DNA from: Cliona cf. orientalis
Taxonomy: Eukaryota; Porifera; Demospongiae; Clionaida; Clionaidae
Length of the DNA: 64,000 nt
Assembly (NCBI GenBank): GCA_963930775.1
Contig: OZ005705.1
Location: 5,766,001 to 5,830,000 of the forward strand
Reading direction: 5' to 3'
The notes under the pieces were generated by a model. It worked only from the letters and a program-made list of their open reading frames with translations. It did not search any database and had not been told where the DNA came from. Positions 25,078 to 63,777 of the stretch are shown piece by piece. The position numbers were made by a program, and so were the translations under genes. How positions within the stretch are numbered: the first letter of the stretch is position 1; each line of letters opens with the position of its first letter.

Positions 25078-25083
25078 GCATAG

Positions 25084-25760: not shown

Positions 25761-25987
25761 TTAGTTTCTCATCCCCGCCCGCCTCTAGTTTTTCCTCCGC
25801 CTGACCATATTTTAATTCATGAATATCATTAAAATTATCACTAAAATATGCACGAGGCATTACGTCATAGACGCGCCAACTTTTTAATGAAATTCATGAT
25901 GACATTTAATGATATTCATGACAAAAAATAAAATAAAAAGCCACCCGCCCGCCTGGGGAAATTCCTGAACATAGGATGAGAAACTAA
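25761..25987. mobile_element. Small inverted-repeat element upstream of VHL copy 2
   Basis: Exact 14-bp inverted ends TTAGTTTCTCATCC (25761-25774) and GGATGAGAAACTAA (25974-25987), with weaker pairing outside (ATTGAATA / TAATCAAT) and GC-rich CCCGCCCGCC blocks just inside each arm. Not present in the equivalent stretch before VHL copy 1 (17180-17220). Confidence 0.75.
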
Positions 25988-26151
25988 TAATCAATTTTGC
26001 TTGGCCTAATGTTATTGTACTGACCCAACAGTATGCATTTCGTGCGCATGCGCAGAATGTATTAGCTAGACGATTAGTGGGCGGAGCATGTAAATATTGC
26101 TGACACAAGCTTTCTGCATGCAGGGGAGGAGCGCTAGCTAAAGCTCTGGGT

Positions 26152-26628
26152 ATGGCTGAACCGAAATCGATTCATAGTCATCATTCAACTGAAGTAAACT
26201 TTCAGAACAAGACCAGGCACAACGTGGAAGTGCTATGGCTGGACTACCATGGAAAGCCAGTCTGGTACAACGGCCTTAGACCTGGAAAGGGCTACCGCCA
26301 ACAGACCTATGTGACTCACCCCTGGGTGTGTATGGAGTCTGACTCGGGAAAGTTCGAGATGATGGAGATCAACAAGAAAGAGATTCTGTACCCTGAGGAG
26401 AAACCCGTCAGTGGTGTGATCACAGAGCCAGAGAGAACACTCTATGAACTGTGTAGGACGAGCTTGCGGCTGTATCTGCTGGAGGCCCAGGGGCTGAGTG
26501 TTCACCAGAAGTTGAATGAAAAGCAATTTGAACAGCTGCCTTTGCCCCGGAGACTGATTAATGATATCTTAGCATTTGACTCGGCTGAACCGTCACATTT
26601 AGTAGCTGGTTATGTCTCTACGACTTAA
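26152..26628 (+). CDS. VHL: von Hippel-Lindau tumour suppressor homologue, copy 2
   Basis: Single exon, 158 aa, nearly identical to copy 1 for the first 140 residues. The beta domain keeps the hydroxyproline-pocket signature WYNGLRPG and TYVTHPWVC, and the Elongin-C box is TLYELCRTSLR. Differences include a short deletion after KFEMM (two residues fewer than copy 1) and an uninterrupted C-terminus ending DSAEPSHLVAGYVSTT. The upstream 60 bp, including GCTTTCTGCATGC and the start context, are also conserved, so the promoter was duplicated too. Part of a duplicated block with the PAXIP1 pseudogene. Both copies look translatable; which is the ancestral form cannot be told here, but this copy's tail is not transposon-derived. 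Confidence 0.93.
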   Translation: MAEPKSIHSHHSTEVNFQNKTRHNVEVLWLDYHGKPVWYNGLRPGKGYRQQTYVTHPWVCMESDSGKFEMMEINKKEILYPEEKPVSGVITEPERTLYELCRTSLRLYLLEAQGLSVHQKLNEKQFEQLPLPRRLINDILAFDSAEPSHLVAGYVSTT

Positions 26629-26687
26629 TAATTCTTATGATGATAATTTTACTTATAGTGTAGTACTAAGTCTTATAATAATAATTC

Positions 26688-28604
26688 TTAGAATTTGTGA
26701 ATTTTTTTGCAGCCTTCAACAGCATAAGTGAATCCTTCGTTGTCTATTGCAATCCCACATACATGGCTTGATAAGCTAATTTTGTGAATATGGCGACCAT
26801 GTGGATCGAATACGTGTATTGCTTTGTTACTCCAATCACCGACAATACAGTATCCAAACTTGTCGACAGCCACTCCTGATGGTCCACTGAGAATTCCATT
26901 GCCATACTCGCGTATCAACCTTCCACTCGCAGAGAACACCTTTACTACACTAGCACCACATGTTGCAATGTGTACGTTGTTGTCTGAGTCCAGGATAACA
27001 GCTCTCGGTTCAGGTGTACTTCCACCCCCACCAATGATACGAGAGAATGTTCCATCAGGGTTAAAAACTTGCACTCGATTATTACCCACTTCAGCAATGT
27101 ATACTTTGCCATATTTGTCCACAGTACATCCCCATGGCTGGCTAAGCTGCCCATTTTGGGATCCTTTGCTTCCAAATTTTGACAGAAATTCTCCTTCTTT
27201 CGTCACCTTCTGAATCCTACTGCCATTATATTCACCAACAAATACTATCCCTTCACGTTCACAGATACCTAATGGGTGGCCAAATTGTCCATCACCAGAC
27301 CCATATGTACCAAAGGTTCTCTTCAGCTTCCCAGCAGCATCAAATACCTCAACACTGTGGCCACCATGATTAGCAACAATAACATCTCCATCACTACACA
27401 CTGCAATGTCACATGGATAGGAAGCTGAAATCGTCAACATGGGTGTCTTTAATGAAGTATAATCTCGCGGAGTTTCAGTTGGAGTCTCTGACACAGCTCC
27501 CAACATAGCTATAGCACTCTGAATCTTGCTTGAATCTATCTCAACTCTCAGAGTATCACTTTCAGTAGGTTTCAGTGTTTGCTTCTCAAATCTCTCCGAC
27601 AGTTGACTAAGTTGAGCCAAAAGTGGTGTGATAATAGCAAGAATTTCAGTATCACTAAAGTTGGCACTGACGTCAGCAGCTACAGAATTGTAGGAGGTGA
27701 TTTGGTCCTTAAGTGAGGACATCTCATCAATTTGGATGCTCAAACCAGTCAGCTTTGCTGTAGATACTTCTTTATTTTTGGCATTAAGCTCCCTTTTGCG
27801 ATGCTTAAGAGCTGCTTCAAGCCGTTGAAACTCGTCATTAATTTTTACATCAATTTCCTTCCGCTTCTTCTCGATCTTTTCCATAACAGCTTTGGCTTCT
27901 TTAATGCTCTCTCCCAGCTTAATCTCAGCTTGAGCAAGCAACTCCTTTCCTTCCAATATCTTCTGCTTTTGTTGAGTGGCATGTTTGGTGAGTTCTTCAA
28001 ACTCATGGCCTTGGTGTTTTATCACTGCACACTCCATACACACTAAAATATTACAAGTAGTGCAAGCAAATTTGATCTCACTTCCTTCGTGTAGCGGACA
28101 CTTCAAGGCCGACGGTGGCACGATAGAGCGCTGAAGTTCATTCTGAAGATTTTTCATTTTCCTTGCTCCTTCGATCATTAGGACCTTGTGGTTCAGTGCC
28201 ATCCTTCGTGATAAAACATGTTGCCTGTGGCATTCCTTGCAGAGAAAGCCCTGGCAGGTGCAGCAGAAGGACACCGTCTCTTCAGGAGGATCTCGGCTAC
28301 ATTCGTCACAGGTAGGAAGGGTCCCTCCCTGGATTTGACTAGCATATCTTCTCAACATCGACCTGTAGTTCAGGTGGGCGTTTTTTGGAAGTTCTTCCAC
28401 CGTTCCCTGATTGACAGGGGAGGAAGTGTGGCAGGTAGGGCAGCAAACTGTGGCCTTTGATGATCCAGATTTACTGACCAGTCCATCAATGCAGGTCTTG
28501 CAGAAGGAATGGAGGCAAGGGAGCATACGGGGATCGTCATAGGACCTTTTGCATCGTTTGCAAGTAGAATATTCACGACTGACACGAGGTGCTTGCGACG
28601 CCAT
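26688..28604 (-). CDS. TRIM-NHL E3 ubiquitin ligase, copy 3
   Basis: 638 aa, intronless, ATG at 28602-28604 (MASQAPRVSREYS). RING (CKRCKRSYDDP), B-box 1 (CDECSRDPPEETVSFCC), B-box 2 (CPLHEGSEIKFACTTC), coiled coil and NHL propeller as in copy 1, complete to IHKF. Against copies 1-2, differences concentrate in the linker before the propeller (ETPTETPRDYTSLKTP) and in blades 1-3. Its stop lies 60 bp beyond the convergent VHL copy 2 stop. The start is 260 bp from the divergent membrane gene at 28865, with conserved promoter boxes between. Predicted RING-type ubiquitin ligase; substrate unknown. Confidence 0.93.
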   Translation of the reverse strand: MASQAPRVSREYSTCKRCKRSYDDPRMLPCLHSFCKTCIDGLVSKSGSSKATVCCPTCHTSSPVNQGTVEELPKNAHLNYRSMLRRYASQIQGGTLPTCDECSRDPPEETVSFCCTCQGFLCKECHRQHVLSRRMALNHKVLMIEGARKMKNLQNELQRSIVPPSALKCPLHEGSEIKFACTTCNILVCMECAVIKHQGHEFEELTKHATQQKQKILEGKELLAQAEIKLGESIKEAKAVMEKIEKKRKEIDVKINDEFQRLEAALKHRKRELNAKNKEVSTAKLTGLSIQIDEMSSLKDQITSYNSVAADVSANFSDTEILAIITPLLAQLSQLSERFEKQTLKPTESDTLRVEIDSSKIQSAIAMLGAVSETPTETPRDYTSLKTPMLTISASYPCDIAVCSDGDVIVANHGGHSVEVFDAAGKLKRTFGTYGSGDGQFGHPLGICEREGIVFVGEYNGSRIQKVTKEGEFLSKFGSKGSQNGQLSQPWGCTVDKYGKVYIAEVGNNRVQVFNPDGTFSRIIGGGGSTPEPRAVILDSDNNVHIATCGASVVKVFSASGRLIREYGNGILSGPSGVAVDKFGYCIVGDWSNKAIHVFDPHGRHIHKISLSSHVCGIAIDNEGFTYAVEGCKKIHKF

Positions 28605-28864
28605 TTTTATCGAGGTCCGCCCACTGTAACGTAACTGACCGCGCCTGATCCGGGATCCAGAACGAGCGCAGTAATTACCATCTACGCATGCGTGGAAATG
28701 TGACCCAACAGAGTAAGGGTTGTTATGAAACAGAACACTAGATTACTGTAAAAGTGAAAGAAAAACGAATCGTGTGACTATAAGCATAGTCTAAATTATC
28801 TGGGGAACTTGTATTATGATGGTGGTTTCACTATCATAGCTACTGACTGGTTTTCATTTTCTGG
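28605..28864. promoter_or_regulatory. Divergent promoter, TRIM copy 3 / membrane gene
   Basis: Conserved boxes: GAAAGAAAAACGAATCGTGT (28756-28775) extending to TAAG at 28784, and GGGGAACTTGTATTATG (28802-28818). TACGCATGCGTGGAA at 28683-28697 is also shared with the other pairs, on the TRIM side. Confidence 0.65.
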
Positions 28865-30503
28865 ATGGATCTGAAAAATCCTTACATTCTAGTTCTAGCT
28901 ATTATACAAATAGCTATAATAGTGAAGGCTGACACACAGTGTCCACTGTGGCATTTAAAGAGTGAGACCAGTGAGCACTGTGTACGCTGTGATAGCCTCA
29001 ACGGACTTGTCAAGTTTGACAAAGAATATATCAAGATCCAAGATGGCCACTGCATAACATGGAACCACAATACCCACAGTACAGAAGTCAGTCTCTGTCT
29101 TCTGACCCGTTTGTTAAACTACGACGTGTGTGGAAAGTATGGTTCGTATAAAATTCCTACAAATGTTTCTGGTTCTGAACTGAATCGAATGATCTGTGGA
29201 GGTTACAACCGACAAGGGCCCTACTGTAGTGAATGCATTGATGGACATGGCCCAGCAGTGTTCTCAGATAGCCCGATCTGCGCCAGTTGCTCGGAGCAGA
29301 AATATCTATGGATTTTAAATTTGTCGATGCAGCTACTTACGGTGACTCTAATGTACCTTATAGTTATTATTCTTCAGATCAATGGCACATCTAGTCCCTT
29401 GAATAACATCATAACCTATTGCCAACTGTTTATCAACGGTCTGAAGTATGGCTCAGGACTGCATAGACGATTTCTGTGCTTCGTTGGGAAAGATGTTACA
29501 AATTTTCTCATAGCAGTCTTTGGTATATGGAATTTAGATTTCCTGCGTGTCTACACTCCGCCAATGTGCGTAGGCCAGTCGATAAAGACTATAAACATTT
29601 TGCTCTTTGATTACATCATTGCCCTCTATCCATTCGTTTTGACAGCAGTTGTATTTCTCTGCATTAAACTTCATGATAGAAATTTCAGACTCATACTCTT
29701 CTTGAGCTTACCACTAAAGAAGTTGCTAACATACTTCAGGATTGATTGGAATCCAAAAACCTCTATCCTCACCACATTTGCCACTTTTTTCATACTCGTG
29801 TACTCTAAACTGCTGTATGTCTCTGTCAACTTTTTATTTGTAATACATCCATACGACTGTCAAGGAAGACCAGGATCTACCATACTCTTCTATGATCCAA
29901 CAGTCCAGTTCTTTCACTCTGAGCACATTCCTTATGCCATTTTTGCACTGTCCATCATTTTCATTTTTGTTCTCCTACCTCCTCTACTCTTGCTCCTCTA
30001 TCCGACCAAACTCTTCAGGAAGTGTCTGAACTGTTATGGTTTTCGGCGATGGGACATCCTGCACCCTATCATGGACGTATTCCAAGGCTGGTACAAGGAT
30101 GGAACAGAGGGAACTCGCGATTTCCGATCCCTTTCAGCACTTTACATGCTCATCCCGTGTTGGATATGTGCTTATGATTCTCTTTCTACATATTATGGAT
30201 ATTAAGGATGACAACCTAATGGAGTGGATAGGACCGGGATTGGTTCATTTTGGCATTGGGATTATGTTCTTTGTTGTAAAGCCATACAAAAAACAATGGA
30301 TGAATCGCACTGATGGAATCTGCCTCATCTCTTATGGCTGTCTTGTCTTGGCACAAAATTATCACTATAAGATCGTGTATATCCTCATTGTTATCACATA
30401 TTTTGTGTTTTCCCCAGTAGTGATTCTCAGTCTCATTCTTTTTTGTAGATGTGCAAGTAGTATGTTCAAAAGGGAAACATCATCGTCTGAACAGAGCCAT
30501 TGA
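28865..30503 (+). pseudogene. Multi-pass membrane protein, frameshifted copy
   Basis: ATG 28865. About 97% like the intact gene at 34217 up to residue 433 (SALYMLI). One extra C then appears (CATCCCGTGT at 30151-30160 against CATCCGTGT), which sends the frame to a stop at 30205. The remaining TM helices continue in another frame to 30503 (VGYVLMILFLHIMDIKDD onward) with no more damage. The truncated product (446 aa) would lack the last three or so membrane segments. Either a young pseudogene or an assembly or sequencing error. Confidence 0.85.
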
Positions 30504-30884
30504 AAGGTGTGCTCAATGTGTTGTGTACATGAGACTAGAAATCAATACAAAGGTGCATATGGCTATAGCTGTGATATTATTTTCGTTTGAATTAGCTAGT
30601 GATCCCCACTGTATTGAGCACTTAAACACAATTCAGAGCTATCAGTAGAGTTGAGTATCACCCATAATAGGGCTTACACTGGGACTTTCTTGACCTGATA
30701 CCTTAAGCAGTTGTCCATGCAATAATTAATTTTGAGCTATAACGGTATTAGAGGTATGGCTATAGCTACATGTATATGCGTTGTCACTAAGATTACTTTT
30801 TTGTGTTTATGCTTCATTGTATAACTGTTAAAGTATTTCACAGTAATAATAACAATAATCAGAATACTATAATATTTATATTAA

Positions 30885-30943
30885 ACAGTTGTCTATAAGG
30901 TGCATCACACACAATGACATTATCACGGTAATCACTTCCGCTG
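30885..30943 (-). pseudogene. Remnant of a short-chain collagen 3' end
   Basis: About 60 bp align with the tail of the collagen gene at 38475: SDYRDNVIVCDAP here against SDCRDDVIECAVC there. It suggests the duplicated block once ran into the collagen locus. Short, so only moderately sure. Confidence 0.5.
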
Positions 30944-31032
30944 GCTATTGAGGCATTCATGGTGCAGTCGAAAAGAAGCATGAGGACTTGATCGAGAGTG
31001 GGTAAAATCAATGGATGCATAACAATGACAAT

Positions 31033-31383
31033 CTCCCCGATTGGTTCTTGGCTGACAACTGTGACAAGTCCAAGTACTATCAGAAGACTCTGCCGATCAC
31101 GAAGGAGATGGTGGAAGTCTACCATGCTAAGTAGAAAGAGATAAATAGTCGGCCGATCAAAAATTAAGATAACCGAGGCCAAGGCAAGGAAGAAGTGTGT
31201 CTTAAAGAAGCTTGAAAGAGTTAGAAGGAAGGCCGAGGATTTAGCAGATCTAGGAGAAGATGTATCGGCCCAGGAGAAAGCCCAGCAGATCAAATAGGTG
31301 TAGCTACAAGAAGGTGGGTGGGGAAGAGAAAGAGAGAGGTAGAGTACGTTATTGCAAAGAAGGGCGGTACTGATAGGCATCAT
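31033..31383 (+). pseudogene. Fragment of FTSJ3/SPB1 pre-rRNA methyltransferase C-terminus
   Basis: Plus-strand reading, over two or three frames, gives the hallmark C-terminal segment of FTSJ3/Spb1: LPDWF, KEINSRPIK, then EAKARKKCVLKKLE, KAEDLADLGEDVSAQEKA and EYVIAKKGG. A TAG at 31132-31134 stands where the family has Trp (W-KEIN), and there is a frameshift just after RPIK and another before the last segment. It is a dead fragment with no upstream catalytic domain in the window. The long minus-strand open frame over this stretch is its antisense shadow. Confidence 0.82.
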
Positions 31384-31390
31384 GTCAGAA

Positions 31391-32028
31391 TCCCAAAAAA
31401 TTGCCTATAAAAAAACAGCACATATTTGAAGTTTTAGGGATCACAACTACTCACTACAATGTGCCAAACCTGCACCACAGACTTCAGCAAAGACAGCACT
31501 ATACTGCAGTATCCACTTCCGGCATTGCAGGGCTTCAGGAAAACTCCATAAATACCATATACTCCACTACTGTCGCACACAGTGGCACACAAAATTAATA
31601 TTGCTTAGCCTATTAATGGACTTGCTCCATGTTGCTCACTTCTCCAGGGCATTTTATGCTTCTAGGTGGAAACTCTAGTAGGCCTCCAAAGCAATCAATA
31701 TGTTACGTGCCATTAATTCCCAAATTGAAATAGTAAACACATGCCTGGCAGAAAAGTTGTTTAGAAAACAGCCATAATTATCTCCACAACCCCTTGATGA
31801 AATTTTACAAAACAAAGACTAAATTGTATCTTGAAGCCTCCTTCATTATTATGTACATGTGTGGCAAAGAAAGTGTAAGGAATAATCTACAATTTTGATG
31901 TAATACTGGTATCATTACAAATGACATTGTAGTACTAGTTGAACCGCACTAATTAAGTCTTTATAAAGGACAATAATTATAATTAACGCTGATTAATACC
32001 AAAATTTTAATATTAGCTATTATCATTA
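31391..32028. other. Intergenic stretch without a recognised gene
   Basis: AT-rich spacer downstream of the FTSJ3 fragment and at the 3' side of TRIM copy 4. No gene, long repeat or RNA was recognised. Confidence 0.5.
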
Positions 32029-33936
32029 TTAGAATTTGTGAATTTGTTTGCGGCCTTCAACAGCATAAACAAATCCCTCATTGTCTATTGCAATCCCACA
32101 CACAGATTTTGATAAGCTGATTTTGTGAATGTGATGACCATGTGGATCAAATACATATACCGCTCTGTTGTACCAATCACCAACAATACAGTATCCAAAT
32201 TTGTCGACAGCCACTCCTGATGGTCCTTTGAGAATTCCATTGCCATACTCGCGTATCAACCTTCCTTTCATCGAAAATACCTTTATTACATGGGCGCTAC
32301 ATGTGGCAATGTGTATATTGTCGTCTGGATCCAGGGCAACAGCTCTTGGTTCAGGTGTACTCCCATCACCACCAATGATACGAGAGAATGTTCCATCAGG
32401 GTTGAAAACTTGCACTCGATTGTTTCCCTCTTCGGCAATGTATACTCTGCCATGTTTATCAATGGTACAGCCCCACGGATTACTAAGCTTCCCATTATGA
32501 GAACCTGGGCTTCCAAATGTTGAAAGAAATTCTCCTTCTTTCGTCACCTTCTGAATTCTATTTCCACTATATTCACCAACAAATACTATCCCTTCATGTT
32601 CACTGACCCCTATTGGAGACATAAACTGTCCATTACCAGACCCAAGTGTGCCAAAACTTTTCTTTAGCTTCCCGGTAGCATCAAATATCTGCACTCCGTG
32701 GCCACTGTGATTAACAACAAGAACATCACCATCGTTACACACTGCAATGTCATATGGACAGGCTGCTGAAATTGTCAAAGTGGGTGTCTTTAACGAAGTG
32801 TAATCTCTTGGAATTGGACTTGGGGTCCCTGATACAGCTCCAAAGGTGGCTATAGCGCTCTGAACTTTGCTTGAACCAATTTCTACTATCAGACAATTAC
32901 TTTCAGTAGGTTCCATTATTTGCTTCTCGAATCTCTCGGACAATCGACTAAGTTGAGCCAAAAGTGGAGTGATAATAGCAAGAATTTCAGCATCACTGAA
33001 GTTGGCACTGACATCAGCAGCTACAGAATTGTAGGAGATGATTTGGTCCTTAAGTGAGGACATCTCGTCGATTTGGATACTTAAACCCGTCAACTTTTCT
33101 GTAGATATTTCTTTATTTTTGGCGATAAGCTCCTTTTTGCGATTCTTAAGAGCTGCTTCAAGACGTTGAAACTCTTCATTGATTTTCACATCAATTTCCT
33201 TCCTCTTCTCATCGACTTTTTCCATCACAGCTTTGGCTTCTTTGATGCTTTCTCCCAGTTTAATCTCAGCTTGAGCGAGCAACTCCTTTCCTTCTGATAT
33301 CCTCTGCTTTTGTTGAGTGGCATGTTTGGCGAGCTCTTCAAACTCATGGCCTTGGTGTCTTATCACTGCACACTCCATACACACCAAATAATTGCAAGTA
33401 GTGCAAGCAAATTTGATCTCACTTCCTTTGTGTAGCGGACACTTCAAGGCTGAAGGTGGCACGATAGAGCGCTGAAGTTCATTCTGAAGATTTTTCATTT
33501 TCCTTGCTCCTTCAATCATTAGGACCTTGTGGTTGAGTGCTATCTTCCGAGACAAGACATGTTGCCTATGGCATTCTTTGCAGAGAAAGCCCTGGCAGGT
33601 GCAGCAGAAGGACACCGTCTCTTCAGGAGGATCTCGGCTACATTCGTCACACGTAGGAAGGGTCTCTCCCTGGATTTGACTGGCATATCTTCTCAGTAGT
33701 GACCTGTAGTTCAGGTGGGCGTTTTTAGGAAGTTCTTCCACCGTTCCCTGACTGAGAGGGGAGGAAGTGTGGCAGGTGGGGCAGCAAACTGTGGCCTTTG
33801 ATGATCCAGATTTACTGACCAGTCCATCAATGCAGGTCTTGCAGAAGGAATGGAGGCAGGGGAGCATACGGGGATCGTCATAGGACCTTTTGCATCGTTT
33901 GCAAGTAGAATATTCACGAGGTGCTTGCGACGCCAT
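32029..33936 (-). CDS. TRIM-NHL E3 ubiquitin ligase, copy 4
   Basis: 635 aa from ATG 33936 (MASQAPREYS), chosen because it aligns with the starts of copies 1 and 3; an in-frame ATG at 34023 exists. Complete RING, B-box 1, B-box 2 (CPLHKGSEIKFACTTC), coiled coil and six-bladed NHL, ending IHKF. This is the most diverged propeller: SFGTLGSGNGQFMSP, FGSPGSHNGKLSNPWG. The RING/B-box/coil half remains close to the other copies. The start is 281 bp from the divergent intact membrane gene at 34217. Predicted cytoplasmic E3 ligase. Confidence 0.93.
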   Translation of the reverse strand: MASQAPREYSTCKRCKRSYDDPRMLPCLHSFCKTCIDGLVSKSGSSKATVCCPTCHTSSPLSQGTVEELPKNAHLNYRSLLRRYASQIQGETLPTCDECSRDPPEETVSFCCTCQGFLCKECHRQHVLSRKIALNHKVLMIEGARKMKNLQNELQRSIVPPSALKCPLHKGSEIKFACTTCNYLVCMECAVIRHQGHEFEELAKHATQQKQRISEGKELLAQAEIKLGESIKEAKAVMEKVDEKRKEIDVKINEEFQRLEAALKNRKKELIAKNKEISTEKLTGLSIQIDEMSSLKDQIISYNSVAADVSANFSDAEILAIITPLLAQLSRLSERFEKQIMEPTESNCLIVEIGSSKVQSAIATFGAVSGTPSPIPRDYTSLKTPTLTISAACPYDIAVCNDGDVLVVNHSGHGVQIFDATGKLKKSFGTLGSGNGQFMSPIGVSEHEGIVFVGEYSGNRIQKVTKEGEFLSTFGSPGSHNGKLSNPWGCTIDKHGRVYIAEEGNNRVQVFNPDGTFSRIIGGDGSTPEPRAVALDPDDNIHIATCSAHVIKVFSMKGRLIREYGNGILKGPSGVAVDKFGYCIVGDWYNRAVYVFDPHGHHIHKISLSKSVCGIAIDNEGFVYAVEGRKQIHKF

Positions 33937-34216
33937 TTTTAGTTTTCCTGCTGATCGAGGCCTGCATAAAATCGTAACAGACCCCGCCCGCGCCGGATTG
34001 GGAATGAGTGTAGTAGTATGCACGCATGCGTGGAACTAATAATTATTATTAAAAGAGCAAGGGCTGTTGGTTTAACAGTAACTGTTATGAAACAAAACAC
34101 TAAATTACTGTAAAATTGAAAGAAAAACGAATCGTGTGACTATAAGGGGAACTTGTATTATGTTGGTGATTTCACTATCATAGCTACTGGCTTCATTTAA
34201 TTTTTCTAGAGTAGCT
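33937..34216. promoter_or_regulatory. Divergent promoter, TRIM copy 4 / membrane gene
   Basis: Carries the shared boxes GAAAGAAAAACGAATCGTGT (34118-34137) continuing to TAAG at 34146, then GGGGAACTTGTATTATG (34147-34163), as well as CGCATGCGTGGAA at 34023-34035. Confidence 0.65.
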
Positions 34217-52056: not shown

Positions 52057-55000
52057 ATGGCGACAAATATTATAGATAGCATTAAAGAGAAATACCGTGA
52101 TAGTACATATCACGAAAGTCAGTGGTCATTAAAGGAAATAATTACACCAGATTTAGTGAGAAAACAGTATCTACCTGCTTGTCGCAAGAGGAAAAGACCG
52201 GCTGTAGAGTTAAGTCCATGTTCTTATCGTGATCTCTTTACAACACAAGATACAGAGAAGGCAATAAAAAAGATAGTCATTGAAGGAGAAGCTGGCTTTG
52301 GTAAAACTACTCTCTGTATATCAATCACTAGAGATTGGGCAACTGGAAAATTATTTCAGCAGTTTGAATTGCTTCTCATGTTACCAATTCATGAGAAAAA
52401 ACTTGCTTCAGTGGCTTCTATTGATACTTTATTCAGTCTAGTCTATGATGCTAATACCGCTGCCTTTATAATTGATTACCTAGAGAGACATGGAGAAAAG
52501 GTTTTAATTATCATAGATGGATGGGATGCAATGCCTTTTGCACCTGAGCAACAAAAGAAATGCGGTTTACATAATATTCTTTTTGGAGATCACTTTCCAG
52601 CCATTTCAGTCTTAGTTACCTCAAGACCATCCACTGCACTACGTACGCTCCGGTGCATTGATCAGTTCATTGAATTATGTGGTTTTAACAAAGAAACCAT
52701 TAAGTGGTGCATCCAATCTTATTTTCCTATCAAAAAGGAAGTTGCTGATAACCTCTTAGACCAATTTGAAAGTAATCCTCTCATTGAGAATGTGTGTAGT
52801 GTTCCCCTTAATTGTGCTATAATTTGTGACATGATAGATAGCAATGAGCAACTTACTGTTCCAAATACAATGACGGAACTATGTTACAATAATCTCATAC
52901 TACACATCATCAATAATGCTGTTGCTGAGAGCAACTCATTTGTGAATGTATCAAGTTTATCTGATCTTCCTGATGATCTAAAGTTGCTGTGGCAGTCTTT
53001 GTGTGAGATAGCCTTTCAAGCTATATTTCCAGCTGAAGATGAAATACAAGCTCATAGCATGAATATATCATCCTCCAATGTTGCAGATGATAGAATTTTT
53101 TATTTTGGATTGGTTAAGTCCGTATCAGAAGATGCTGAGGGTAAATTGACCTTCCATTTTTATCATCCAACCATTAAGTCGTATCTTGCTGCTCAGCACC
53201 TTGTGCAACAGCCGCGAGATGCACAGCTTAGTATTGTTCATTCATATGCAAGCTTGAGGCAGTTAACTATGGTATGGAGATATTTATTCGGTATTTATTT
53301 CAGGGAAATCAAAAGCATGAATGTTGATCGTGATTTCATCAAGTGGTGTATTCAGATATTAGCTGCAAGACATATTTCTAGTGGTGAAGGCTACAATTTA
53401 TGCCACTATTCATTTGAAGCCAAGAATAAAATCGTTAGCGATGAAGTATTTAAAGCTTTTACTACTATCAAACGCCAGTGTCCTGCAAATCTCTTACGAA
53501 TACATTTTGGTAGTCCTCGTACTGCACATGATTGTGCAGCTGTACTGTATTTCATTGCAAACATAGAGCAGAAAACTTCTATAGAGCTCAATTTTAATCA
53601 TTTCTTAGCAGAGAAACAACTCAGAGAGCTAGCACACATACTCAATAGCAAACAAAGTATAGTACAACTGAAAGCATTGCATTTAAGTGATAACCAGTTC
53701 AGTAGTGAAGTGATAATTGATTGTTTCATGAAGTTTGTATCAACTTTCAAGTTCATGGAAAAATTGTTTCTCCGTAACTGTCACATTGGACAGCCAGGAA
53801 TGGATGTTATCATAACCGTCATCATGTTAGCATCTCGAACTTTAAAAGTCTTGGATCTTTCCTATAATTCTGTTTCGTTGTATGGTTTAACAGATACTGT
53901 TTTATCCGGTGTTCTCTCAAACATTGAGATTATGTTTTTAAAAGGATCTATTGTTGAGCAGGAAGATACCAGTTGTTTAGCTAGCTTTTCTGAGGCTCTT
54001 TTATCTCATTGTAAGTATTTACGGCGACTTGATCTCTCTGCTAACAACTTTGGTGATCCTAGAAACCCAGCATTAGGCAGGATCATTTCTCAAATAGCTA
54101 GTATTTGTGAAAACTTTGATCTTATTTTGGATGGACAGTACATGTCTGAAGTGGAAAAGAAATTCATTGAAATTATGGAAGAATCCATTAAGAGAAAGGG
54201 AACGATAGATCATACTATTGCACATGGAGTAATTGTTGGTCCTGGACGCTCAGGAAAAAATTCACTAATGAATCGCTTGTTGGGTAAAGGTCCCCCTCCT
54301 CCTGGATTCCAATCTTGTAGCACAGGAGTGTTGGAGAATGTTCGTAAAGTTGAAGTGAAAAAGCTATGTACAGTATCTGCTGCTGTTAGTGGTGATGGAT
54401 TGCAGTGGAATGAATTGGAGTATGATGAAGAAGCTATTGAATTAATGATGACAACTGCAAGAAGTTGCCGTCCTAGGATTGAAGTCTTCAAGGAGGGTGG
54501 TGATAAACAATCAGCAGGTGTCAAAGAGGCAGACACATCTACAACTGAACTTGAACACACCAGCTTGAGTGAAACTACATGTCAAGCACTCACTACACCT
54601 CCAAAAAGACTAAAGGTAGTGAAGAATGTGAAAGGTGCTAGCATTAAATATAAATGCAAAAAGGAAATAAGTGAAAATTTGTTTGTGTACTCTTCAAATG
54701 TAGGACGTGCAGACATTTTTAAACGAGCACTACGTCTGCGACAAATGGATGGGCTTCGTGAGCAACTTGAATCATCCTGGTCTCTCTACCTTACTAATAC
54801 TGGTGGTCAAATCGAGTTTCAGGAACTTTTGCCTCTTCTTGTCAGTGGACCTTCAATATTCTTTATTACTTTTCCACTTAACAGAAATCTTAAAGATTAT
54901 TATTCTGTACAGTATCAGTATGAAGATGGTAGTATTCAAACGTACCCATCTCCCTCTACTCTATTGGATGAAATCCTTCAGACTCTTGCAACTATTTCAG

Positions 55001-56343
55001 CCTTAAACAGTGAACATTTGGAAAGTCAGAAATCATCAGAGTTTGTACCTAAGATTTTTTTTGTTGGTACACACAAAGACATGCTGCTGAAATCATCAAG
55101 AGAACAAATTATAGATGATATTGACAATACACTTCAAAATTGTATTCAGAAAACGTCCCTCTTTAACCAAGGCTCAATTGAATATGCCTGCCCAACAAAA
55201 CGGCTCATTTTCACTGTTGATAACTTTGCTGAAAGTGATGATGATTTTCAAAAGATTCGTTTTGCCATTCAGCTTATGGTTGAAAGATCCAAAGAATTTA
55301 CAGTACAATGTCCTTCCACCTGGCTAATTTTCAGTCTCATACTTCGAGCTAAGCATAAGTCTGTTCAAGTATTAACCTACAGTGAATGTTTCAAGATAGC
55401 ACAAAGTTGTGGCATATCAGGTTGCACTGAATTGAACAATGCACTATTCTTCATTCACACTAGATTGGGATTAGTACGATATTTTAGTGTGGATGGGCTT
55501 AATTCTCTTGTTATCCTTGATCCCCAGATTCTTTTTGATAAAATCACAGAGTTAATAATAAATACATTCATCCAGGAACGTGCAAAACCAAATGAGATTG
55601 AAGAATTTCAAAACAGAGGAATCTTATCTGTAGCAACTATTGAAAGACTTAGCCAACAATCTAACTCAAACTCACGAATCCCACTCGACTGGTTATTGAA
55701 ACTTCTTAATTATCTCAGAATAGCCGCTCACTTTAAGGATCGCACAGGAGACAAATATTTCTTTCCTTCTGTAGTTTGTCGTGCTCCAGAACAGCCATCA
55801 CTCACATCCTCTACTGCAAATTTTGACCCTTCTCTGTTGGTTGCATTTAAGAATGGTTTTTGCCCAAGAGGTGTTCCTGGAGCTCTAATTAAATATCTTA
55901 TGACCAATGAAATGAATTCACAATTGAAGTGGGAACTCCACCAAAGAAGAATTTTTAAGAATGAGGTTACTTTTGGTATCGAAACACTTGGTGACATTAT
56001 TCTCAAGATTCATCCAACTCATCTAGAAATTCAATTTGATCCCCAGTGTAAATGTAGTCAAAATGATTTAAAATTAACTTGTAGTGAAGCTTTTGCTCAA
56101 ATTAAGCAGGGTATGAAGACAGTGACTACTGAACAGAATTATTTCTTTGCATTTTATTGCACACAATTGGAATGTAACAGTCGTCCACACCCAGCTAAAA
56201 TAGAATGGCGTGGTAGCAGTCCATCTAAGTTGAAGTGTGATTGTATTCAAAGAAGAGGAGATTTACCAATGAATCATCAAGTATGGCTAAAACCTGCTAT
56301 GGAACAACTCAATGGTATGCAATATTTTCAGATTATGGTTTAA
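52057..56343 (+). CDS. NACHT-LRR-Roc-COR protein (NLR/ROCO fusion), large exon
   Basis: 1428 codons open in one exon. The NACHT NTPase lies at about residues 69-260: Walker A GEAGFGKTT (77-85), Walker B VLIIIDGWD (149-157), sensor VTSRPS. The helical region runs to about 480. Leucine-rich repeats span about 535-690 (LKALHLSDNQF, LKVLDLSYNSV, LRRLDLSANNF). The Roc-like GTPase has a P-loop GPGRSGKNS (728-736), switch II NTGGQ (914-918) and THKD (1005-1008). A roughly 165-residue insert sits before switch II. The COR domain covers about 1090-1400 (LGLVRYF, LVILDPQILFDKI, CPRGVPGAL), then LPMNHQVWL, a motif often seen just before a Death domain. A splice donor G|GTATGC at 56314/56315, 29 bp before the stop, is in phase with the Death exon at 57997, so the true protein may continue. 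Likely a cytosolic innate-immune sensor (inference). Confidence 0.9.
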   Translation: MATNIIDSIKEKYRDSTYHESQWSLKEIITPDLVRKQYLPACRKRKRPAVELSPCSYRDLFTTQDTEKAIKKIVIEGEAGFGKTTLCISITRDWATGKLFQQFELLLMLPIHEKKLASVASIDTLFSLVYDANTAAFIIDYLERHGEKVLIIIDGWDAMPFAPEQQKKCGLHNILFGDHFPAISVLVTSRPSTALRTLRCIDQFIELCGFNKETIKWCIQSYFPIKKEVADNLLDQFESNPLIENVCSVPLNCAIICDMIDSNEQLTVPNTMTELCYNNLILHIINNAVAESNSFVNVSSLSDLPDDLKLLWQSLCEIAFQAIFPAEDEIQAHSMNISSSNVADDRIFYFGLVKSVSEDAEGKLTFHFYHPTIKSYLAAQHLVQQPRDAQLSIVHSYASLRQLTMVWRYLFGIYFREIKSMNVDRDFIKWCIQILAARHISSGEGYNLCHYSFEAKNKIVSDEVFKAFTTIKRQCPANLLRIHFGSPRTAHDCAAVLYFIANIEQKTSIELNFNHFLAEKQLRELAHILNSKQSIVQLKALHLSDNQFSSEVIIDCFMKFVSTFKFMEKLFLRNCHIGQPGMDVIITVIMLASRTLKVLDLSYNSVSLYGLTDTVLSGVLSNIEIMFLKGSIVEQEDTSCLASFSEALLSHCKYLRRLDLSANNFGDPRNPALGRIISQIASICENFDLILDGQYMSEVEKKFIEIMEESIKRKGTIDHTIAHGVIVGPGRSGKNSLMNRLLGKGPPPPGFQSCSTGVLENVRKVEVKKLCTVSAAVSGDGLQWNELEYDEEAIELMMTTARSCRPRIEVFKEGGDKQSAGVKEADTSTTELEHTSLSETTCQALTTPPKRLKVVKNVKGASIKYKCKKEISENLFVYSSNVGRADIFKRALRLRQMDGLREQLESSWSLYLTNTGGQIEFQELLPLLVSGPSIFFITFPLNRNLKDYYSVQYQYEDGSIQTYPSPSTLLDEILQTLATISALNSEHLESQKSSEFVPKIFFVGTHKDMLLKSSREQIIDDIDNTLQNCIQKTSLFNQGSIEYACPTKRLIFTVDNFAESDDDFQKIRFAIQLMVERSKEFTVQCPSTWLIFSLILRAKHKSVQVLTYSECFKIAQSCGISGCTELNNALFFIHTRLGLVRYFSVDGLNSLVILDPQILFDKITELIINTFIQERAKPNEIEEFQNRGILSVATIERLSQQSNSNSRIPLDWLLKLLNYLRIAAHFKDRTGDKYFFPSVVCRAPEQPSLTSSTANFDPSLLVAFKNGFCPRGVPGALIKYLMTNEMNSQLKWELHQRRIFKNEVTFGIETLGDIILKIHPTHLEIQFDPQCKCSQNDLKLTCSEAFAQIKQGMKTVTTEQNYFFAFYCTQLECNSRPHPAKIEWRGSSPSKLKCDCIQRRGDLPMNHQVWLKPAMEQLNGMQYFQIMV

Positions 56344-57996
56344 TCTTGGACAAATTTATTGCACTGAAGCACAAGGGTACGAAGTCGCCTGAGAGCTGAG
56401 TGCAATAAATACTGTGCATATACTGTGTGCCCATGATATATTATATACCTCACAGGCATAACTACCATAGATATGCATCAAACATTAAGGTAAGAACGCT
56501 GGAGCATAAAGAAGAGACAGGCTCATCTTACTCGAAACAGACACACAAATTAAGCCACTCTCTGAGTCAGGCTCTCGATCATCGATTGAACTTTCAAGTG
56601 TCTTGTGACCAAGGGTGTGGCCAAATTGCATGCACACGATGAACTACCATCATTAGCGTGGCTAGCATCATCGAGTTCAGAACCAAGAAACGAAGGTCGA
56701 ACTGTTGCCTATCCTAGAAACAAGGCTACTCATTTCCACACCAAAGTAGCTATACAGTAAGCTTACCTTCCTATGTATGTAGCTACTATGTTGACTCATG
56801 ATCGATGGTCAACTCCACCCATTGCTTCGAACTGCTTAGTGCTTCGATCTCCAGCCACCCTTCCTGCCATAGGCTCCATTGATACAGTTATAGTTACTGA
56901 GGGACTACTAGCTAATTCTTGATTTTTAGTAATAGTATTCCCTGAAGCATTCTTGTGGTTGGTGCAATGCAATTACATCACCAGTTGTAATTTAGTTTTC
57001 TGCAGTTATGATGATGTAATATTATATGAGGTAATTACCAGAAAATTCAGGGCCTCCATGGAACCTTTCTGAGACTTGAAAGTCAGTACATATGTAAAAT
57101 ATCTGACACATGTATCCAGCAAATACATTAGAAACTGAGTGCTGCTTTCTCTGACAAATTCCACTGGCCGAACCTCGCGTATTCTCTTGGCTGACGTAAT
57201 CCTGTGGATAAAGAAGCCTAGCTTTGAGGGGGCTTTGTGCTATATATATTATCATGCATGCTGGCAGTGCATGCCATGCATGCCAAAATCGACCTGAATT
57301 TGAAGTTTGAAAGCTATACTGCGCATCAAGTTGGTCTCCTGTGATTGAAGCATCAAAACATGTCACTATCAAGGTTGAGAGTTGGTCTCAGACTCCCATC
57401 TCTGCGATTCAGGTACCGGCATCGATGTGGCTTCTAGATGAATCTTGCTATATACAGACATATTATTGAGGCCTGGTTATGAAATAATCATATAATGTCG
57501 GCTGGTACGCTATATATGGTCACAATTGCTGGATGGTGCAAATGGGAGGGGCTGAGAGGGGTTGCGAGTGGTTCGCAGGGCCAATTAGTCTCTAGGGTTT
57601 ATCTATAAAGTCCTGTTTACACGTACAAGCTGGCTTAGACTAAACAGCTTTGGAATACACTTTAATCGCATTTGAACGTAGGGTTTTAAGCATTTGCACG
57701 TGGACAGTTTGTTTAGCAACGTATCGTAAACCAGTTTGAATGAGGTGGTCTTCCATTGCATGAAGTAAGTGGTAGTTGTGTCTCAGCATTGTGGACAAGA
57801 ACGTGGCCATTCCCATTCAGTCAGCCAATCTGCTTTTGGCTAAAAAATCCAAACAAAATTTATTTGGTTAGTCTACTTTCAGTAGTGGTTTTAACACTAT
57901 GAACACGGATGTTGAATATTTAACTCCAAAATTTTAGCATGTCCTAAGAAATATTATGGTACAGTTGCATGTATTGATTTATGCATGTACATATAG
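56344..57996. other. Possible intron or intergenic stretch after the NLR exon
   Basis: 1.65 kb with no convincing coding exon. If the 56314 donor is used, this is an intron of 1,682 bp ending ACATATAG at 57996. The minus-strand open frame 57022-57372 resembles nothing known. Confidence 0.5.
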
Positions 57997-60900
57997 TTTG
58001 TCAAGATGTTGTATCAACAAAGCACATTGGTGAGATAGCTGACAGTATGTATGATTGGGAGGGGGAAATAGCTGAAGAACTTGGACTCACACTACCTGAG
58101 GTTGCTGAAATAAAAGTGGAACATGATAAGAAACTTAAACTACAAAAGTAAGATTTGTATGCATGTGATCAGAGTAGATTGATGTATATTTAATGAGATA
58201 ATCCTCCCTCCACCATGCAGAAGAGCTGCATTACAGACATGGAAGCAAAAAAATGGGTCCATGGCAACATTCTGTAGTCTGATTGATGTATTTGAGCGTG
58301 CTGGCCATCGTGATTATGCTGAATTTGTCAAACATATTCGTGATAAGGAAATGATGTTTCAGCAATCTTGTGAAATGTCAGATGATTGCATACCTTCATC
58401 GCCACCACTGCCTCCTCAGCCATCAACATACCCCAAACTTCAATCTCCTCGGTTTCCATGTACACCTGCGTCAATTGAATCATTTGTACTTGAGGAAGGA
58501 GTGAATAGCTCAGAAGGTTAGTTTCCATAGAATATTTGGTAAATCAGATGTCAACAAGACATACCATACTTTTAAAAAATTTGGCCTTTCTAATTATTAT
58601 TCAGCACCTTCTACCTAATGATTAAAAATAGTCTCTAATTTTCGGCAAGGTCATCACATGTATGGGAATAGAATGCACACGCAGATGGAATGTTGAATAT
58701 TAACCTGGCGAAGCTCATTATAATTTATAAAACTATAATATTGTCATGTATATGTGTACCATAGGATCCCACAATTACGCCCCCTGCACTTTTAGCTCAA
58801 GTTATAAGCCCCTATGAAATGAAGGTATCATAGAGTCGGTAGACTATAAGTAGGGTTGGCCCGGATATGCCATATATGTAATACACAGGGCCGTAGGAGC
58901 CACAACGGCCACAACGGCTATGGCCGTTCAAGTTTTTTTGGCCTGACATACAAATATAGGAGGGCATGGACGAGAGTGCTCATGGTTGCATGCATAGAAG
59001 GATCAGTGAACCAGCTCATGGCTGCAACTCCACCGTAAACTTACCTACGAATCCCTCACCGACTACTGGCATTGTCCAAAAGGCCTTTTGGAAAGACGAC
59101 GGTCGTCTATCACTCTTTTTATAGTCCTCTGAAGTGTTCGAGATTTAGAGCTCGGCGCTTTGCGCACATGCATATTGGCATTGCGCGTAGGAGTCAATTA
59201 ACGATGGGTGTGGTCTAGTTTTGCGCATGCGCACTGACTTAACCGTTCAAGTACAAACTTGCTTCCTACAGGCCTGATACATTACAAATACCCAAATATC
59301 TCAAAATAGGTAATTTTGTGATATTTTTAAGTGTGAAAATCGGAATCTCTAGCAAATTATCTATCTAACAAGACCAAGATCATCCATCAATTCAATTGTA
59401 TATGCCAGAACCAGATTTTCCAAAAATGACCATTTCTCATTCTTTTTTTCTTTCTTTCTAGTTTCCAGGGCTAGCTTGAGATTACCTTGACCTCTCATCT
59501 TAGTTTAAGTATAAATCCATTCCATTTAGTACAGTGCAACCTCGATTATCCGGACCTCGTTTATCCGGAACCTCGATTATCCGGACTAGCCAGAGACCTA
59601 AAAATACATTACCACGCATGCGTAGAAGGCTTGACCGATGATCTTTTGTGGGTGTGGTTATAGATTGAGCAATGAGCTATGGACTCTACAGGCTTGCCTT
59701 GGCCAAAATTGACTGACCAAAGTACTCTTCTGAACACTGCTGGCCATGATCATACTGTATAGGTATCGTTTATAGGCTAGGTATCATAAACCCAGCGAGA
59801 AATGTAGGTATTTCAGTTATCCGGACATTTCACTTATCCGGTATGGCAGTGATCGGCCGGTGGACAAAGGGGTCCGGATAATCGAGGTTGCACTGTAGTG
59901 CGCATTGCAGTGGCACGCTAGTATTGCGTTATCTTGACAGTTACGTAATAGTGGGTGTGTACGGTGCATTGACAATAATTGGGTGTATCTGATACGCCAT
60001 TTTGTGATCTAATGCGCATGCTCAGAATGTGTTACCATGGTGAAGTCGTGTGACAGCGCCCTGGCCCTCGAGGCCTCGGCGATATTGCCTAACCCTAGCG
60101 CTAGTGTTTTAGCCTCTGCTGGATCGATCAAGGATATGAAAGTGCAAGGCTCAAGGAACGGTAGGGGGCTAGTCATGAGCGAGCTACTCGCTAGCGCGTG
60201 CAGCGCTAGTGATCCGCTGGATAGATCATGCATGTCATGGAGCCTGCACAAGGCTAGAGGAGCTCAGTGGTAACGTACAGATTAGCTGCTGCCAACAATA
60301 AAGTTTAGAACTTGGTTTTCTCCATAAACGAAAGAGTCTCATTGCTACATCAATATCGGCCGCCTAACGCTGCCTTCTTTGTCAACCTCCTCATAGGCAT
60401 AGGAACGCAAGCCTTTAACGAGGGGTGTGGCTAAGAATTTTGCGCGGATATGATCTTCATTCTTCTACACTGGAATATTGACAGCGAATCGAATTATTCT
60501 GAGAGCAATAAAAAAGAACAGACACAAGTATAAAAACAATTGAATAAAATTGAAGGATGAAGTAGGGATGGCAGGATCAAAAAGTACATAAACAAGATTT
60601 GTAGGGATAATCACATCCACTATATAATAGTTAGACACTGTTTAGGAGGTTTCTACGTGATTTAGAAGACCGAAGGGCTCTGTGTAGAATCCCGAGCGAA
60701 GCGAGGGTTCTACTGAGCCCTGAGGTCTTCTAAATCACGTAGAAATCGACTAAGCAGTGTCTAACATGTTTAGATCCTAGCAGCAATGCCCAAAAGCTTG
60801 ACACATAAACTGCTGCCTAGCAACAACCTTAACCATAGGCAAGAAAATTTACATGATTTTCTACAGAGCTTTACATGATTTTCTACAGATCTTACATGAT

Positions 60901-63777
60901 TTTCTATGAAGGATAGATACTTTAGTTTAACCAATCAGATCACAGTATTTGTTACAAGTAGGATCTAAACATCCCTACACTTGCTTTTTGAGGGGTGCAA
61001 GAACAGTAGTATCTTTCACATGCAAGTCAAGAGTGCTCAACAAACAAGTTAGGTGCATGATAATCGAAAAAAACAAGTGTAGGGATGTATAGTGGATGTG
61101 ATTATCCCTACAGATCTTGTTTATGTATTTTTTGATCCTGCCATCCCTACTTCATCCTTCAATTTTGTTTTTATACTTGTTACAATATAAGACTCCATAA
61201 CACACTAGCTATTTGTGTGCTATTATGCTCAAGTTACTTGTCGTTTTTCTTGAGAAATTGCAGAGATCGCGCACCCACGTAGCATTTAATGGTCAGTAAT
61301 GATCATCACACAAATGTAACGATCCCGTGTACAAGCCCCCTCCCCAGTTTTGCCCAATGCTAGCTTGGAGAAAGGGAGGGGGTGTAATCGTGGGATTTTA
61401 TGGTACTATATTTTCTTTAAATCCCACTGATCTCAAACCTCGCCACATTTTAGCCAATAATCATCTCATATCTCGAAATGTCAACACACGATGAAGGGTT
61501 GATAACATCATAATATTATATTATAGTACGCAAATATCGCTGTTCTATGAGGATGTACCTTTTTCCCATCAATTCATGTATTCATATCAAAGCATGGCAT
61601 GGCACACTTCAATCGGCATGTGACACAAAATTACATAGTGCATGTTTAAGTTCAAAGTTCAACATAATATAAGTTCAAATAATACATGACACTCCCATGA
61701 GTATGGTGCCCGTGTGTCCTCTAGACATGTGACAAGTAAGCCACTCTGGATATAATTATGTTTGCCTTGTGTGTGTACATACAGATGACATACTATTGGA
61801 TTGTGATAGAGTATCCTTTCTACCCATGCCACCTCCCTCTGTTTGTGGTAAGACATTAGCCTTGGATCTTAAAGAAAGTATGGTAAGAAGTTTTACATTA
61901 CAGTGAGAACTTTCACCTAGAAATTACACCAGCTGCTGTCATTGGGCATGCGCAAAATTTAATAAATTTTTCCCTTGTATTTATGATGATGCAGCAACCT
62001 TTACTTTCTAGCTGAAGGTATCTAGCTTTGACAAAGTTTCTCCCATGAAAATAAAATTATGGTTTTAATGCAAAGGCTGGATAGTTTGAAATTATTATGT
62101 TGACCCATTATTCCAATTGCAATACTGCTACATGCAGGCATTGTTTTAGAGCTCAGCCAAACCTGATAGTGTTCCACCCACACATGGTCAAAGTTCACAT
62201 GAATAATAAATTATATTATTCCTATTTTTGTCCATGTTTTTTGCACATTCTAGGCACAGAGGTAAGTAGCTCTCCTGACGCCTGCCCTGCGAATGAAAAG
62301 CAACCTGCCACTGTTAGTCTGCAAGTGCAGGTAAGTATTGCAATTTTATGCGGCAGTTTTTGCCAAGGCAAACTGCCTGTATGTAATGATATACGAACGA
62401 AACGATAGCTTATGAGTCTTTACAGGGCCAAGTATAGCGTTTGAACTCTATCAAGTTACACAAACAGAAAGTAAAAAAACTTACTGATCAGCTGCCATGT
62501 GACTCGCTTGATGGCAGCCCTCCAGGACAAAAGCTTGTCTGACGATTCACCATCTTTGAGTTTTTGAAAAAAAATACTATACTTGGCACTGCTTCGATTG
62601 ATGGACTATCATAAACAACAGTGAAGTCAGTTCATTCGAGTCTCTGGTCTTCAAAAGTTGATGCAGAAATTTGGACTTTGTTTATATCTGGAAATGGTTG
62701 ATATTCGTTCGCATTTTTGACTAATTAAACCGCATTAAACCATATATGAATTGTGTGTGTGCGCAATCATTAAATTTTATAAATTGTGTGTCGAATACTA
62801 TCCCATAACTTTAAGCATTACCTTTTACATTTTATTAATTTTGGAATTCATCAGCATACACTGAGTTCAAATTAATTCCAGCACCTAGCTCTTAAAGCTG
62901 AGAGAAGTGAGGGGACATTGATTTTTGTGCTTTTATGCACATTTTAGAGTTTGGATGAAAAATGCCATGGTACCTGATCTTGTGTATCTTACCAACAGGA
63001 ATTTGTATCTAGTCACCCGGATAATGAACAAATCCTTGATTGTGATGATGCCACATCTCATGAAGAGCCAACTATTCCCAATAAACAAAAGGACACATTG
63101 TATATTCTTCATCAAAAGAGTGACCACAAGTGTACTGTGTGCCATGTAAACATAGATATTGGATATCGTTGCACTGAGTGTAATGTGAGTGCTCCTGTGT
63201 TCATGTCCTTGTGTGGATGATTATTTCTTTTTTTGCATAATATACATGTAGGACTTTGATATCTGTCCATCATGCTTTCAAGCAATTGGTCATGAACATC
63301 CACTAGATAAGTTTGGGGTTGATGATGACAATAAAGCCATATTTCAACAAAGACAAAAGGATCCCAAGGAACAGCAAATTGGCTCTATTCCCATGCAGCA
63401 ACCACTTGAACACAAACAGCTCAAGGCTACACATATAAATACGAGTAACAAGGACTCATCTGTCCCAAGTTCCAGTGACATCAACTCCACAACCACAAAT
63501 ACACACTCTTTACCTCATCCATCAACACCAAACAACGCTCATTCCTCTAATAGTAGTGATGATACGCCTATGGTTCCTGCACCCTCATCTGATCCAGAGA
63601 AGAGAAAACAGATACAGCAGCAACTGGTGCTACTGCTCCACGCACACAAGTGCCAGCGGAGGGAGAGAGAGCAACAGGCACATGGAGACTATCGACCGTG
63701 CCCACTGCCCCACTGTAAGACCATGAAGAATGTACTAAATCACATGACCGGGTGTCAAGCTGGGAGATCATGCACAT
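57997..63777 (+). CDS. Death domain - ZZ finger - TAZ1 finger exons (likely 3' part of the NLR gene)
   Basis: Six exons with matching phases: 57997-58147, 58221-58516, 61785-61847, 62254-62330, 62999-63184, 63252-63777, then a donor (ACAT|GTAAGT); the next exon is beyond the window. Exons 1-2 encode a Death domain ([42 protein letters not shown]). Exons 5-6 hold a ZZ finger ([33 protein letters not shown]). After a Ser/Thr-rich linker comes the first part of a TAZ1 domain nearly identical to CBP/p300: [47 protein letters not shown]. In CBP/p300, TAZ1 is N-terminal and ZZ precedes TAZ2, so ZZ-TAZ1 order is different. The first exon needs one base from upstream; the NLR donor at 56314 provides it. 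TAZ1 binds transcription-factor activation domains in CBP. No start codon of its own was found. Confidence 0.8.
58886..59276. mobile_element. MITE with CAGGGCC/GGCCTG ends and 5-bp target duplication
   Basis: 391 bp in the intron between the Death and following exons. Ends CAGGGCCGTAGGAG and CTTCCTACAGGCCTG pair. ATACA flanks both sides (58881-58885, 59277-59281). Same family as 23218-23683. Confidence 0.85.
59532..59895. mobile_element. pogo/Tc1-type MITE with TA target duplication
   Basis: Perfect inverted ends CAGTGCAACCTCGATTATCC (59532) and its complement ending at 59895, flanked by TA on both sides. Internal TTATCCGGA words repeat. 364 bp, non-coding. Ends of this type are typical of pogo/Tigger-like elements. 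Confidence 0.88.
60523..61180. mobile_element. Long-armed foldback element with a nested hairpin
   Basis: Arms of about 95-100 bp (60523-60624 and 61088-61180), beginning ACAAGTATAAAAACAA, are inverted copies; GTAGGGATAATCACATCCAC is exact in both. Inside, 60631-60770 is a second inverted repeat (TTAGACACTG / CAGTGTCTAA, CTACGTGATTTAGAAGACC) whose tip is the loop GAGCGAAGCGA. ACATGATTTTCTACAGA repeats three times at 60851-60910. Confidence 0.85.
61848..62253. other. Intron between Death-ZZ-TAZ1 exons 3 and 4
   Basis: AT-rich, no feature beyond splice sites recognised. Confidence 0.4.
62331..62998. other. Intron between Death-ZZ-TAZ1 exons 4 and 5
   Basis: 668 bp of AT-rich sequence bounded by GTAAGT and ACCAACAG. 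Nothing else recognised. Confidence 0.4.

Follow-up and report, generated by a model that had tools for sequence, protein, structure and literature searches.

A predicted NACHT–LRR–Roc–COR–Death receptor in a sponge, followed by CBP-type ZZ and TAZ1 fingers that may belong to a separate gene

Main

Can an animal innate immune receptor carry its own coactivator fingers, or does the stretch of sponge DNA that suggests so hold two neighbouring genes? The question arises at one end of a 64-kb stretch (64,000 nucleotides, here called the window), where an initial annotation had joined seven exons into a single protein with the domain order NACHT-LRR-Roc-COR-Death-ZZ-TAZ1. If this is one protein, an animal lineage would have combined in a single molecule a sensor of pathogens, an adaptor for cell death and fingers that activate genes, a shorter route to transcription than that of vertebrates, in which CIITA recruits CBP. 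On a more cautious reading, the locus would encode a NACHT-LRR-Roc-COR-Death receptor; one of its exons would hold both nucleotide-binding modules, of which Roc has Asn at the two expected metal-site positions.

In this work, we examine the seven exons (E1 to E7, Table 1), the domains that they encode and the two long gaps between them. We find two neighbouring genes slightly more probable than one protein: the join between COR and Death is favoured in all settings of a small gene model, whereas the one between Death and the ZZ-TAZ1 part is insecure, as the gap between them holds a candidate promoter and start. The proposal of a single protein is fairly well supported at its first join and left in doubt at its second.

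Table 1 Features of the locus, in window coordinates.
Feature	Position	Strand	Evidence and remarks
E1, NACHT-LRR-Roc-COR coding exon	52057..56314	+	Pfam and translation; 1419 codons, ATG start
Roc GTPase motifs	54238..55080	+	P-loop GPGRSGKNSL at 54238, NTGGQ at 54796, GTHKD at 55066
Candidate donor GTATGC	56315..56320	+	phase 1
AATAAA, possible poly(A) signal	56404..56409	+	60 nt after the E1 stop
Rival start ATG before the Death exon	57981..57983	+	in frame; poor context
E2, first half of the Death domain	57997..58147	+	Pfam; weak acceptor TACATATAG
E3, second half of Death and Pro-rich tail	58221..58516	+	Pfam
TGCGCATGCGCA, NRF1-like palindrome	59222..59233	+	candidate promoter element
CpG-rich stretch, candidate promoter	59787..60086	.	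19 CpG, o/e 1.09
Candidate first exon if ZZ-TAZ1 is a gene of its own	60037..60160	+	ACCATGG start, phase-1 donor
E4, optional 63-nt exon	61785..61847	+	phase 1-1; weakly supported
E5, linker exon	62254..62330	+	donor CAG/GTAAGT; 0.14 bits per codon
E6, linker and first half of the ZZ finger	62999..63184	+	
E7, second half of ZZ, linker, CBP/p300-type TAZ1	63252..63777	+	window edge cuts TAZ1

Results

One open frame over seven exons

The single open frame that had been claimed over the large exon and the six exons downstream of it was reproduced. When spliced, E1 to E7 give 1852 codons without a stop from 52057 to 63777, with GT/AG borders and matching phases at all joins, where agreement of phase is expected by chance at one join in three. 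This observation is confirmed. In the Pfam search, matches above the cut-off were obtained for NACHT, LRR, COR-A, Death, ZZ and TAZ, and among the domains that had been named it is Roc that stays below its own (E 0.21, 12.2 bits against a cut-off of 27, for a Roc-like segment that follows the LRRs and precedes COR).

To weigh the joins, we used a small gene model in two versions, the first with three settings and the second with five; its splice, start and length parameters are generic values, not those of this species, and it ignores CpG content and promoter motifs. The cheap-intron setting of the first version says little, because it inserted spurious mini-exons (some with a length of 0) into the E1-E2 and E3-E6 intervals.

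An open frame of this kind could be a coincidence, with three separate units (NACHT-LRR-Roc-COR, Death and ZZ-TAZ1) or a decayed locus behind it. There is a rival boundary at each join and the 1-in-3 chance of matching phase is not small, but the three-unit parse was the lowest of four in five of five settings, and decay is unlikely because the matches to Death, ZZ and TAZ lie above the Pfam cut-offs and the frame stays open throughout. We consider this explanation improbable.

A NACHT-LRR-Roc-COR exon with an altered Roc module

The E1 reading frame opens four codons before ATG 52057 and, left unspliced, runs to a stop at 56341-56343. Its NACHT domain (residues 73-224, E 1.3e-22 in the whole-protein Pfam search) has NLRP3 as its best match and holds both Walker A (GEAGFGKTTL) and Walker B (IIIDGWDAMP) motifs; the P-loop is intact, and an Ala stands at the Glu position of the NLRP3 motif DGFDE. 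Leucine-rich repeats lie C-terminal to it (LRR_6 6.6e-7, LRR_1 1.3e-5, scoring highest over residues 651-667 and 538-558). The first 81 residues gave no Pfam match at all, hence neither Death nor CARD, and the predicted N-terminus is, in lacking these, NLRX-like.

COR-A is matched above its cut-off (residues 1086-1239, 4.3e-9, 36.8 bits against 35.3). For the Roc-COR part, the only PDB match listed is a weak one (E 0.15) to 3dpu, listed as a Rab family protein and known as a bacterial Roco protein, to which the P-loop and COR pieces align in the correct order. The Roc P-loop (54238-54267) is aligned with GDGMAGKTSL of that chain and reads GKN where 3dpu reads GKT, and the DxxG motif (54796-54810) reads NTGGQ. 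By the Roc consensus, S/T and D would be expected at the metal site; Asn at both positions suggests that normal switching is absent. An AlphaFold2 model of 54109-56340, computed without an alignment, had a mean pLDDT of 33, too low for the predicted fold to be of use.

In a receptor of this build, the LRRs would sense a ligand and NACHT would oligomerise with ATP. Roc-COR would act as a dimerising scaffold and not as an ordinary GTPase switch: because GKN and NTGGQ stand at the expected metal-site positions, ordinary Mg-GTP switching is unlikely and a scaffold more likely.

The join between COR and Death

The phase-1 donor that had been claimed just before the E1 stop is present (ATG/GTATGC at 56314/56315), fits the Death exon at 57997 and lies 29 nt before the end of that stop. 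It ranks within the top 3.7% of GTs, and just four that strong occur in the 4.29-kb E1 reading frame; an equally strong donor is found in 2.7% of the 30-nt windows of E1. On the other side of the gap, E2 and E3 together encode a Death domain (Pfam 3.4e-10 on the spliced translation) that is nearest to the Death domains of ankyrin and CRADD in the PDB comparison. Scored with a generic matrix, the E2 acceptor is weak (within the top 29% of AGs); it is similar to two more acceptors of this chain, TACATACAG and TACATGTAG, a likeness noticed post hoc. As a genome-wide acceptor motif, TACATNNAG is not established: the window holds 19 copies, three of them at acceptors of the chain and the other 16 untied to acceptors.

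The chief rival to this join has the NACHT-LRR-Roc-COR gene end at the 56343 stop and a second gene, Death-ZZ-TAZ1, begin at ATG 57981, in frame and one codon past a closing stop at 57975. A transcript end at the 56343 stop is spoken for by the AATAAA downstream of it, a possible poly(A) signal that would count against the COR-Death join or for a short isoform. The comparison behind this is weak: within 400 nt of 10 ORF ends, several of which may not be gene ends, AATAAA was found at 0 and ATTAAA at 5. The weak E2 acceptor also favours a split at this point, as do the nine codons between the donor and the E1 stop, which score as coding as the E1 median. The gap itself, at 1.68 kb, is longer than any of the 11 introns that we measured (73 to 729 nt); three of these belong to the present chain, and those of the cadherin-domain (FREM-like) and collagen genes were taken as inter-ORF gaps.

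Against a split before Death, the context of ATG 57981 scores -3.2 bits, and the five codons that this start would add look non-coding, scoring below 99% of the five-codon windows of E1; the second in-frame ATG, at 58047, would cut into the Death domain. Between 56344 and 57975, just one phase-1 first-exon candidate for Death was found, of three codons, besides one in phase 0 and six in phase 2. The phase-0 candidate (56433-56489) has a strong donor (6.46 bits) and was discarded, the same-phase acceptors inside the Death exon scoring -5.3 and -8.7. No NRF1-like site was found in the gap, and its CpG peak of 11 (o/e 0.81) is the same as that of the most CpG-rich intron, although it is the same as the 11 before E1 as well.

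In the gene model, the COR-Death join won over a split in all five settings, by 1.6, 3.6, 4.2, 4.2 and 4.2 bits, and the E1 donor was used in all three settings of the first version, once via spurious mini-exons. We conclude that E1 is probably spliced to E2, and that a gene starting afresh with the Death domain is unlikely. The Death domain, C-terminal in such a receptor, would recruit Death-domain adaptors.

ZZ and TAZ1 fingers of the CBP/p300 type

The CBP/p300 nature that had been claimed for the fingers is borne out by both. In the PDB comparison, TAZ1 matches the TAZ1 of CBP with 9.9e-27, the flanking DPEKRK included, and 48 of the 58 aligned residues are identical, with a three-residue insertion. 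The zf-TAZ profile has an E-value of 1.5e-10 when the last ORF is taken unspliced, and of 6.1e-9 for the spliced piece, where the domain, cut by the window edge, covers 47 of 72 profile positions; the gene continues past that edge after E7. In the visible part, the Cys/His positions of CBP are kept in the alignment, except for one non-shared His that is replaced. The ZZ finger (Pfam 1.9e-6 on the spliced translation) is nearest to that of p300/CBP among PDB chains, with 1.3e-6 for p300 against 0.017 for dystrobrevin, and shows the three CxxC pairs and the HxH expected of a ZZ finger.

The order of the two is a departure from CBP/p300, where TAZ1 comes first and a ZZ-TAZ2 pair later: here ZZ precedes TAZ1, which is unusual because the ZZ of CBP stands before TAZ2. 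A further difference is that KIX, another CBP domain, as well as bromodomain, HAT and TAZ2 were not found in the part of the chain that precedes the window edge.

Among the exons that lead to the fingers, E5 was chosen in parses of the second version of the gene model. E4 encodes no domain, scores -0.02 bits per codon and is absent from all printed parses, and the frame is open without it.

A candidate promoter and start between Death and ZZ

The gap between Death and ZZ measures 3.27 kb, again far outside the 73 to 729 nt of the 11 introns. Its CpG content peaks at 19 per 300 nt, compared to at most 11 in these introns and at least 14 at six of 11 gene starts. CpG-rich windows are not proof of a promoter, as others cover an internal coding exon with a BRCT domain near 16 kb and several unassigned stretches.

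The same gap holds a perfect NRF1-like palindrome, TGCGCATGCGCA, and a one-mismatch form of it at 60013 that starts 24 nt before ATG 60037. Perfect copies of the NRF1-like YGCGCAYGCGCR occur in the window at 17224, 26043, 42638, 46333 and 59222, and matches with at most one mismatch number 15 on both strands against 0.29 expected. Two of the perfect copies lie just upstream of VHL genes, and are not independent because these genes are copies of each other; one lies upstream of a collagen gene, one in the Death-ZZ gap, and that at 46333 in unassigned sequence. A one-mismatch site is also present at 61943, in the intron between E4 and E5, where a promoter would be unexpected.

At ATG 60037, a candidate first exon of 41 codons fits the phase of the exons that follow, and the resulting chain is open for 325 codons to the window edge. 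A comparable first exon, by start context and donor, was seen in two of 200 shuffles of the gap. Pfam gave no match for this exon, and the codon score of its ORF is neutral, at about 0 bits per codon; nine ORF pieces from the gaps, compared with Pfam, gave weak matches to SEA (0.068) and DUF7682 (0.014), both below cut-off. A good candidate for a separate promoter and start codon, which the initial annotation had named as grounds against a single protein, is present in the Death-ZZ gap.

The gap also contains inverted-repeat elements (59530-59897, 60524-61180 and 60630-60765), one of them short, its inverted ends being 32 nt long, and another longer, with a palindrome nested inside.

Two genes or one protein

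From these features, a NACHT-LRR-Roc-COR-Death receptor adjoining a separately promoted, CBP-derived ZZ-TAZ1 gene is the reading that we put first, at a little under an even chance. Gene 1 would consist of E1 spliced to E2 and E3 and would end at the TAG that unspliced E3 meets at 58519-58521, with an ATTAAA 99 nt 3' of it, or else in one further 3' exon, short and unseen. The start of gene 2 would lie within the CpG-rich stretch around 60 kb, with ATG 60037 as the probable initiation codon, and its CBP/p300-derived product would carry ZZ and then TAZ1 and run off the window. The TAZ1 of CBP binds activation domains and its ZZ a histone tail or SUMO. Because the Cys/His positions are kept in its visible part, the TAZ1 found here should bind the activation domains of transcription factors as that of CBP does, and the ZZ finger may likewise bind a histone tail or SUMO.

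The alternative is that Death is joined to ZZ-TAZ1 after all, which we rate as plausible, just short of an even chance, when the case of a longer gene with an internal promoter is counted in. The E3 donor is strong (top 1.1% of GTs) and in the phase that E4 or E5 needs, and a join of E3 to E5 without a new start, hence without E4, was the best parse in four of five settings of the second version and one of three of the first; in the second version, its margin over a gene ending at E3 is 3.3 to 5.4 bits. A new start at ATG 60037 was part of the best parse in one of five settings of the second version and two of three of the first.

For the whole of NACHT-LRR-Roc-COR-Death-ZZ-TAZ1 and beyond to be one protein, an NLR with its own coactivator fingers, is a more tentative proposition. 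Its 1852 codons are open and the phases of the E3 donor and the E4 and E5 acceptors agree, but it must span both long gaps, the second with promoter-like features, and pass over the AATAAA behind the E1 stop. Were it correct, the receptor could, once activated, be brought to transcription factors, and the promoter-like stretch would be the internal promoter of a short ZZ-TAZ1 form. Such a fused NLR, possibly existing in two forms through an internal promoter near 60 kb and perhaps carrying KIX and more past the window, appears conceivable from the letters of the DNA, though doubtful.

Relation to known systems

DAPK1 is a ROCO protein with a Death domain. If E1 and E2 are joined, the combination of Roc-COR and Death in one protein would be shared with DAPK1 and with the anemone protein NG3, described with kinase, Roc/COR, death and TIR domains (PMC5094078), and this precedent speaks for the E1-E2 join. 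Unlike in these, no kinase, ankyrin or TIR was found here, NACHT-LRR precedes Roc, and two Roc motif residues are changed. Roc-COR is also carried by Aplysia TLRs and a MyD88-like protein (PMC9334734), prokaryotic AP-GTPase-COR proteins with LRRs are described as homologues of DAP kinase (PMC8195603), and the one PMC paper found to mention NACHT along with Roc-COR is on conflict systems, mostly prokaryotic ones (PMC7159879).

The NLRs of the sponge Dysidea avara (PMC12909245) resemble E1 in having NACHT followed by LRR without an N-terminal effector domain, and the Figure 2 legend of that paper lists Kix and COR among their domains, which favours a fused protein. The legend is silent, however, on whether Kix and COR share one protein and on which side of NACHT they lie, and TAZ and CBP are absent from the main text of the paper.

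A parallel with CIITA had been drawn, and holds at the level of function only: CIITA is an NLR tied to CBP, which it binds via its activation domain (PMC3868913), whereas here, provided that the exons are joined, the receptor chain would include the CBP-type fingers.

Searches of the PMC literature did not find zf-TAZ together with NACHT, zf-TAZ with Death and Amphimedon, or TAZ, death domain, NACHT and zinc finger together in a sponge, and for any three out of sponge, ZZ domain, TAZ1 and death domain the one paper returned was unrelated; KIX, NACHT and sponge came together in one paper, PMC12909245. Among viral contigs (searched for relatives of Death, E1, ZZ-TAZ1 and Roc) and prokaryotic contigs (TAZ1 and Death), there were pattern matches in five of the six scans, none of which encoded a relative; these results, from viruses and prokaryotes, say nothing about animals.

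Other features of the window

Elsewhere in the window, a segmental duplication (15864-17766 and 24042-26578; three pieces, 81 to 95% identical) carries an exon for BRCT together with a VHL-SOCS gene; in the second copy (24042-26578), additional sequence separates the pieces. On the minus strand, 18290-34035 contains four similar long ORFs in tandem, one of which (18290-20290) has RING, B-box and NHL matches. In the 300-nt CpG profile of the whole window, many exons are CpG-poor and many gene starts CpG-rich, a pattern that gene-body methylation would fit.
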